From: a virus
Virus record (IMG/VR): IMGVR_UViG_3300025889_000517
Span: 1-32,790 of that record
Length of the DNA: 32,790 nucleotides
Strand: one strand, 5' to 3'
In this document: positions 26,119 to 26,640 of the stretch, piece after piece
Layout: every line of letters starts with the position of its first letter
Numbering within the stretch: position 1 is the stretch's first letter
Notes under the pieces: generated by a model
Databases searched by the model: none
Told to the model about the DNA's origin: nothing
The model's input: only the letters and a program-made list of their open reading frames with translations
Program-made: the position numbers and the translations under genes

Positions 26119-26158
26119 AAAAAAATGGCGGATGAGCCTTTAATCTCTCTCCGCCATT
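26119..26158 (-). terminator. Intrinsic terminator of the large RNA
   Basis: On the minus strand AATGGCGGA (complement of 26150-26158) pairs with TCCGCCATT (complement of 26124-26132), 9 bp, followed by seven U residues (A tract 26119-26125). The loop is 17 nt. It is oriented only with the minus-strand RNA, since no minus-strand protein gene ends here. Confidence 0.85.
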
Positions 26159-26640
26159 CTCGATAAGATTACAATGCTTACCGCATTAACAACATAATAT
26201 TTAAGTCCAGAAGTTATGGACTCGCTTATCGGCTAGAGTTCTATGGTCTAGCTTTCCCCCGCGTTAGCGGATAAAGGATAAGCACAGTATTTTAGCTGTC
26301 ACTCTCGCGACAACAGGATTGCTGTATCACCTAATCAAAAACCAGAGTACCACCATGACAGGCATCTCGTACTTTTTACCCTACTGGACTGGTTCCTGAT
26401 CCCAGATCCCTTGCGTGCCGTGCACTTAACATCTGAGATTTTTCATATTGATCAATATTACTTTATCTCAGCATAATCTTATCTGCTCCACAAGGGATCA
26501 GGGATCAGGCGCAGAGCAAATTAATAACCGGTGTTTCTCTGCGCTAACCCTGAGTAGTTGACAAGTTTAACGACCGGAAACTACTCGAACGAGGTCATAT
26601 GGTATCTAGAGGTAGTTTAACTTAACTTAGTACTCATAAA
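26119..26640 (-). ncRNA. Large structured non-coding RNA (about 520 nt)
   Basis: No coding frame of note exists here on either strand, but helices are dense. In plus coordinates: 26395-26413 with 26491-26509 (18 of 19 pairs); GCGCAGAG 26509-26516 with 26537-26544; AACCAG 26340-26345 with 26389-26394, enclosing AGTAC 26346-26350 with 26369-26373; CTGAGAT 26433-26439 with 26465-26471; a three-way junction closed by GCTTATC 26224-26230 with 26277-26283 and holding GCTAGA/TCTAGC and CCGC/GCGG hairpins; AGTCCA 26204-26209 with 26217-26222; AATGC 26173-26177 with 26183-26187. A crossing pair (26552-26557 with 26581-26586, and 26528-26532 with 26573-26577) suggests a pseudoknot. A U7 terminator fixes the strand. 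Size and phage context recall GOLLD or ROOL RNAs; identity unproven. Confidence 0.8.

Follow-up and report, generated by a model that had tools for sequence, protein, structure and literature searches.

Evidence for an accessory, multi-domain structured noncoding RNA built from exchangeable modules in HTVC027P-type pelagiphages

What does a marine phage encode in some 520 bases that hold no gene on either strand? The window analyzed here, the whole 32,790-nucleotide stretch of IMG/VR record IMGVR_UViG_3300025889_000517, has the gene content of a marine phage (terminase, SU10-like portal, primase, helicases, and DNA polymerase), and we regard it as an HTVC027P-type pelagiphage because its gene order of terL, Gp88, and terS is as in the cultured Pelagibacter phage HTVC027P. 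Pelagiphages of the HTVC023P/HTVC027P type, which infect SAR11, the dominant bacteria of the surface ocean, are reported to be both abundant and widespread (PMC9599517, PMC11066056). The gene-free locus, 26119-26640, separates the terS side of the genome from the terL side and has GC-rich repeats on both flanks, and an earlier note on this DNA had read it as a large, complex, noncoding structured phage RNA on the minus strand. That reading is borne out by the lack of genes, the z score of the fold, and compensatory changes in homologs. We further consider it very likely (probability of about 0.9) that the locus represents an accessory, separately encoded, multi-domain structured noncoding RNA of HTVC027P-type pelagiphages, whose shared domains are gained, lost, duplicated, and exchanged.

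The minus strand (26640-26119) is predicted to fold at -169.3 kcal/mol (z = -5.39), an energy matched in 0 of 100 shuffles. Three elements seen in the sequence beforehand were recovered: the stem with 18 of 19 pairs is the inverted repeat 26395-26413/26491-26509, whose hairpin alone has a z score of -7.1; the three-way junction is the predicted minimum-energy fold of its segment (z = -2.8); and the U7 intrinsic terminator consists of a hairpin followed by T7, which a consensus terminator scan missed because the loop is too long. The probable promoter of the window RNA was likewise not listed by a consensus promoter scan; judged from the layout of the sequence, the RNA probably starts near 26637. 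Relatives (L numbers) were gathered by pattern scans of viral contigs for the B loop and the D, J, A, and E cores; the J core was found on at least 120 contigs and the A core on 30, and chance matches to the E core were weeded out by context. Counting as a modular RNA any locus with at least two conserved modules on one strand from promoter to terminator, the window carries modules A to H plus the terminator (Table 1).

Table 1. Features of the RNA locus and its flanks in the window
Feature	Position	Strand	Remarks
GC-rich intergenic repeat, upstream of RNA promoter	26672..26719	-	One of six copies
Probable promoter, TTGATC-N16-TAAATT	26644..26671	-	Identical layout in L011, L015, L017, L024, L028; weak by consensus
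Module A: conserved AAGTTAAGTTAAACTACCTC, then H-type pseudoknot	26552..26628	-	Covariation in both helices
Module A, P1: GACC with GGTC	26593-26596 with 26572-26575	-	
Module A, P2: GAGTAGTT with AACTACTC	26579-26586 with 26552-26559	-	
Module B: 8-bp stem, invariant 20-nt loop (26517-26536), palindrome ACCGGT (26527-26532)	26509..26544	-	
Module C: long stem CTGATCCC-T-GATC../..GATC-T-GGGATCAG, U.U mismatch, variable apical domain	26396..26508	-	
Module D: conserved core GTACGAGATGCCTGTCATGGTGGTAC	26340..26394	-	Outer stem differs among relatives
Module E: conserved GGTGATACAGYAATCC and TAAAATACTG flanking a freely varying inner hairpin	26284..26331	-	
Module F: three-way junction	26224..26283	-	Predicted fold; partial copies in L015, L028, L209
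Module G: hairpin GTCCATAACTTCTGGAC	26205..26221	-	Predicted
Module H: conserved segment, hairpin AATGCGGTAAGCATT	26161..26202	-	Hairpin predicted
Intrinsic terminator: GGCGG..CCGCC hairpin + T7	26119..26158	-	z = -4.9; kept in L011, L012, L015, L024, L028
GC-rich repeat, downstream of RNA, upstream of Gp88 gene	26060..26104	-	
Gp88 (PF17338), 204 aa	25363..25977	-	Own probable promoter TTGACACAATATATAGG at 26038-26054

Compensatory changes in homologous sequences, named in the earlier note as a check, were found in modules A, B, and C and support the structures proposed for them. The 16 homologs of module A, collected by a finder that demanded a match to P1, contain 4 versions of the P1 helix and 12 of P2. 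When 15 sequences were aligned, 90.5% of cells are paired compared with 73.9% in shuffles, and 31 cells changed on both sides compared with 8.4, in a test that ignores kinship; the signal comes mostly from P2, with P1 contributing one pair changed on both sides. An A-like sequence in L350 does not fit the module A pseudoknot. For module B, pairing reaches 93.2% versus 68.2% in shuffles, with 43 versus 12.9 double changes (kinship ignored). The module C set was picked by two conserved anchors only, and at positions 11 to 22 it shows 81% pairing versus 57% in shuffles (maximum, 60%) and 380 double changes versus at most 195, kinship again being ignored. The inner stems of module E diverge freely in sequence and retain their pairing, and the outer stem of module D has few variants among relatives. 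In the C stems, G.U outnumbers A.C by 120 to 12, which indicates that the minus strand is the one that folds. The pseudoknot first proposed, in which the loop of the 8-bp hairpin would dock elsewhere in the RNA, was not supported: hairpin B has an identical 20-nt loop when it stands solitary before other genes. It is a different pseudoknot, that of module A, which is backed by covariation.

The claim that the sequence bears no recognized signature stands, as no Rfam family reached its gathering score in the window, including GOLLD, ROOL, OLE, and the Flavobacterium-1 RNA (RF02976). A permissive Rfam search of 26000-26800 gave no minus-strand match at an E value of ≤5, its sole match being a weak one to Atu_C8 on the plus strand. 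A tRNA and tmRNA search found nothing in the window, and a match to an intron or tmRNA, which would have spoken against a new RNA, was absent from the Rfam intron models and the ARAGORN tmRNA search. By these searches, the window RNA is neither GOLLD, ROOL, an intron, nor a tmRNA, and its type is not catalogued, except for one part that is present in relatives.

That part was identified in the cultured relative. Between gp35 and gp34, HTVC027P carries module C, two further modules, and the Flavobacterium-1 RNA (90.2 bits; positions 17753-17873 of its record MN698241, minus strand), which also scores above the gathering threshold in L109, L149, L222, and others. Thus, one module is already catalogued in Rfam as a separate small RNA; the Rfam entry differs from the RNAs described here in being a stand-alone RNA of 121 nt that lacks the other modules, and it has no match in the window. 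A term search found no mention of noncoding or intergenic RNA in the HTVC027P transcriptome paper (PMC12753301) or in PMC9599517. Because HTVC027P is in culture and transcriptomes of its infection have been published, these modules can be tested immediately.

Among 50,697 phage records, a DNA search picked out a single relative, phage 023Pt_psg01, in which a shorter RNA of this type immediately precedes the Gp88 gene. In the relatives gathered by pattern, the stretch from the GC-rich repeat to the terminator is occupied by varying sets of conserved domains: A-B-C-D-E-F-G-H-terminator in the window, A-D-E in L012 and L011, J-D-F in L028, and several C stems in L021. The modules keep a roughly constant order, and none of them occurs in every relative. 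The single ornate fold comparable to GOLLD or ROOL that had been envisaged thus gives way to a chain of separable domains that individual relatives have or lack. All 300 module pairs lying within 900 nt of each other are co-oriented, the sign of C's U.U mismatch included, and sorting the 143 distinct C modules by apical sequence gives 101 groups. When these variable apices were compared with 3.45 Mb of phage contigs with a guide-RNA role in mind, the longest matches inspected were other copies of the module. The J and C patterns were absent from 385 genomes of the bacterial class of a Holosporales genome, a set that may not include SAR11. Two additional modules recur on six contigs: CAGTCATTATTGACTGTG..AAACACTATAACA..GGG..CCCGCGTAGCATAGTGACTGATCA, and one that ends in TGGTCCTGCTAATAAT.

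The cassette is also accessory. L007, a 5.2-kb contig whose terL is 99.3% identical to that of the window, has a small gene where the RNA would be, and its Gp88 is only 78% identical to the window's; conversely, L012, with a terL identity of 92.7%, matches module A at 100% over 90 nt. Because these terL and RNA identities conflict, the cassette and its modules appear to have been exchanged between phages. The copies of phi29 pRNA, a phage noncoding RNA, join by loop contacts, and the pelagiphage RNA also lies near terminase genes; it differs in having no sequence or Rfam match to pRNA, and a need for it in packaging is unlikely because a near-identical phage lacks the cassette at this position.

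Members of each of the GOLLD, ROOL, and OLE families share an architecture (PMC12286853). Like them, the pelagiphage RNA is a large structured RNA of bacteria or phages with covarying helices and a possible symmetric kissing loop (in module B), but it matches none of them in Rfam and has no universal domain. Phages were already known to encode large structured RNAs; the novelty lies in the variable, exchangeable domain set, in which one catalogued domain occurs among many uncatalogued ones, and an accessory RNA of exchangeable domains contrasts with the known large RNAs of one shared architecture.

What might such an RNA do? Several of these domains combine an invariant loop or core with a stem that varies freely, the pattern of a recognition site. 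We therefore tentatively favor, though at somewhat less than even odds, a multivalent docking RNA that would be transcribed and act in trans during infection, several of its separate domains docking on host factors. The B loop is unchanged in phages whose terL is approximately 57 to 73% identical to the window's, and because it is kept across such distant terL sequences, its partner would probably be a host protein, a host RNA, or a second copy of this RNA rather than a gene of the phage itself; module B might pair two RNA copies through its palindromic loop (ACCGGU or ACUAGU). More doubtfully, we hypothesize a combinatorial system in which ocean phages would build large trans-acting RNAs from a library of exchangeable structured domains for use against SAR11 hosts, the constant C stem presenting its hypervariable apex as a swappable recognition part. 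Swappable recognition units, if real, would make these RNAs more than a variant of the known large phage RNAs.

A cis-acting 5' leader of the Gp88 unit or of a leftward operon, exerting control by folding (e.g., attenuation or antitermination), is unlikely but is the foremost of the other explanations. J sites were located by DNA alone, giving 96 distinct sites among the matches listed, 13 of them on contigs ending too soon; in 78 of the 83 assessable loci, Gp88 lies downstream on the same strand, within 1.5 kb in 77 and at 1,548 nt in one. Such an arrangement also fits a leader, as does the solitary B that several phages have between the promoter of another gene and its ribosome-binding site. 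The consensus weakness of the window RNA promoter counts against a docking RNA. However, the window RNA ends in a terminator of its own, and a separate promoter-like site precedes Gp88; among the matches listed, 46 of 81 loci have such a site in the 80 nt ahead of Gp88 (versus 0 of 1,620 control windows), and 46 of 81 have one ahead of J. A leader would also be expected to have at least one universal domain, and Gp88 exists without the RNA: none directly precedes it in L007, L048, L071, or the Caulobacter, Roseobacter, and Acinetobacter phages viewed. The link between the RNA and Gp88 is consequently not obligatory and may be synteny.

An assembly made of RNA only seems distinctly improbable; in it, kissing loops would link copies into a dimer or a cage of the kind reported for OLE, ROOL, and GOLLD, and this complex would be what functions. 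True B loops read only ACCGGU or ACUAGU, and a switch of adjacent bases between palindromes is the sign used to recognize symmetric kissing loops in OLE and GOLLD (PMC12286853). Against this, there are just two loop states, a third position changes along with them, many of these RNAs lack B, and no fold is universal; with two states only, a kissing B loop is a lead.

Two further explanations are less probable still. A ribonucleoprotein in which Gp88 binds, uses, or modifies the RNA would agree with the adjacency at 78 of 83 assessable J loci among the matches listed, but Gp88 occurs without the RNA and B without an adjacent Gp88, and the similarity of the predicted Gp88 structure (pLDDT, 88) to radical-SAM enzymes is weak (QueE: Z = 6.4, rmsd = 4.2, 141 aligned), the fold search giving no clear function. 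In a comparison with RNA-guided nuclease RNAs of the HEARO type, for which constant pairing with a nuclease gene would be expected, the constant neighbor here is Gp88, with no nuclease recognized by family or fold search. A DNA-level element, whose hairpins would serve as a replication origin, packaging site, or recombination substrate with transcription incidental, fits the position between the terS and terL sides, the flanking GC-rich repeats, and a region of active exchange, but is opposed by the excess of G.U over A.C on one strand, the strict co-orientation, the promoter and terminator layout, and dispensability at this place in L007.

Several minor observations concern module B and the neighborhood of the RNA. 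Solitary B, with the same invariant loop, occurs just upstream of a ribosome-binding site on 11 contigs from other marine phages, where it may be a 5' regulatory or stabilizing element. On seven contigs, B has a TTGAGAT/ATCTCAA stem in another conserved context, followed in L155 by a terminator-like hairpin; this may be a small RNA belonging to another group of phages. In a collection of genomes from 84,980 species, the B loop had 12 matches, none with a clear stem, which we took as chance. Gp88 has seven invariant cysteines in 12 relatives, and its predicted fold is weakly like QueE and viperin-like radical-SAM enzymes. A second RNA, considered at 24451-25200 (minus strand) where a 249-aa open reading frame looks spurious, was rejected because of its overlap with a genuine gene, which begins at 24929 on the same strand, has a good ribosome-binding site, and encodes a product beginning MALQYDYTALDTEG. 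Six copies of the GC-rich intergenic repeat (approximately 56 nt each; at 24401, 25104, 26067, 26682, 27074, and 28317) stand out in a genome of 32% GC; they center on TGTGGGCGGGCCCCACCCA, share a single orientation, lie at gene or RNA boundaries near promoters, and occur also in relatives, making a promoter-upstream control site or an exchange boundary possible.
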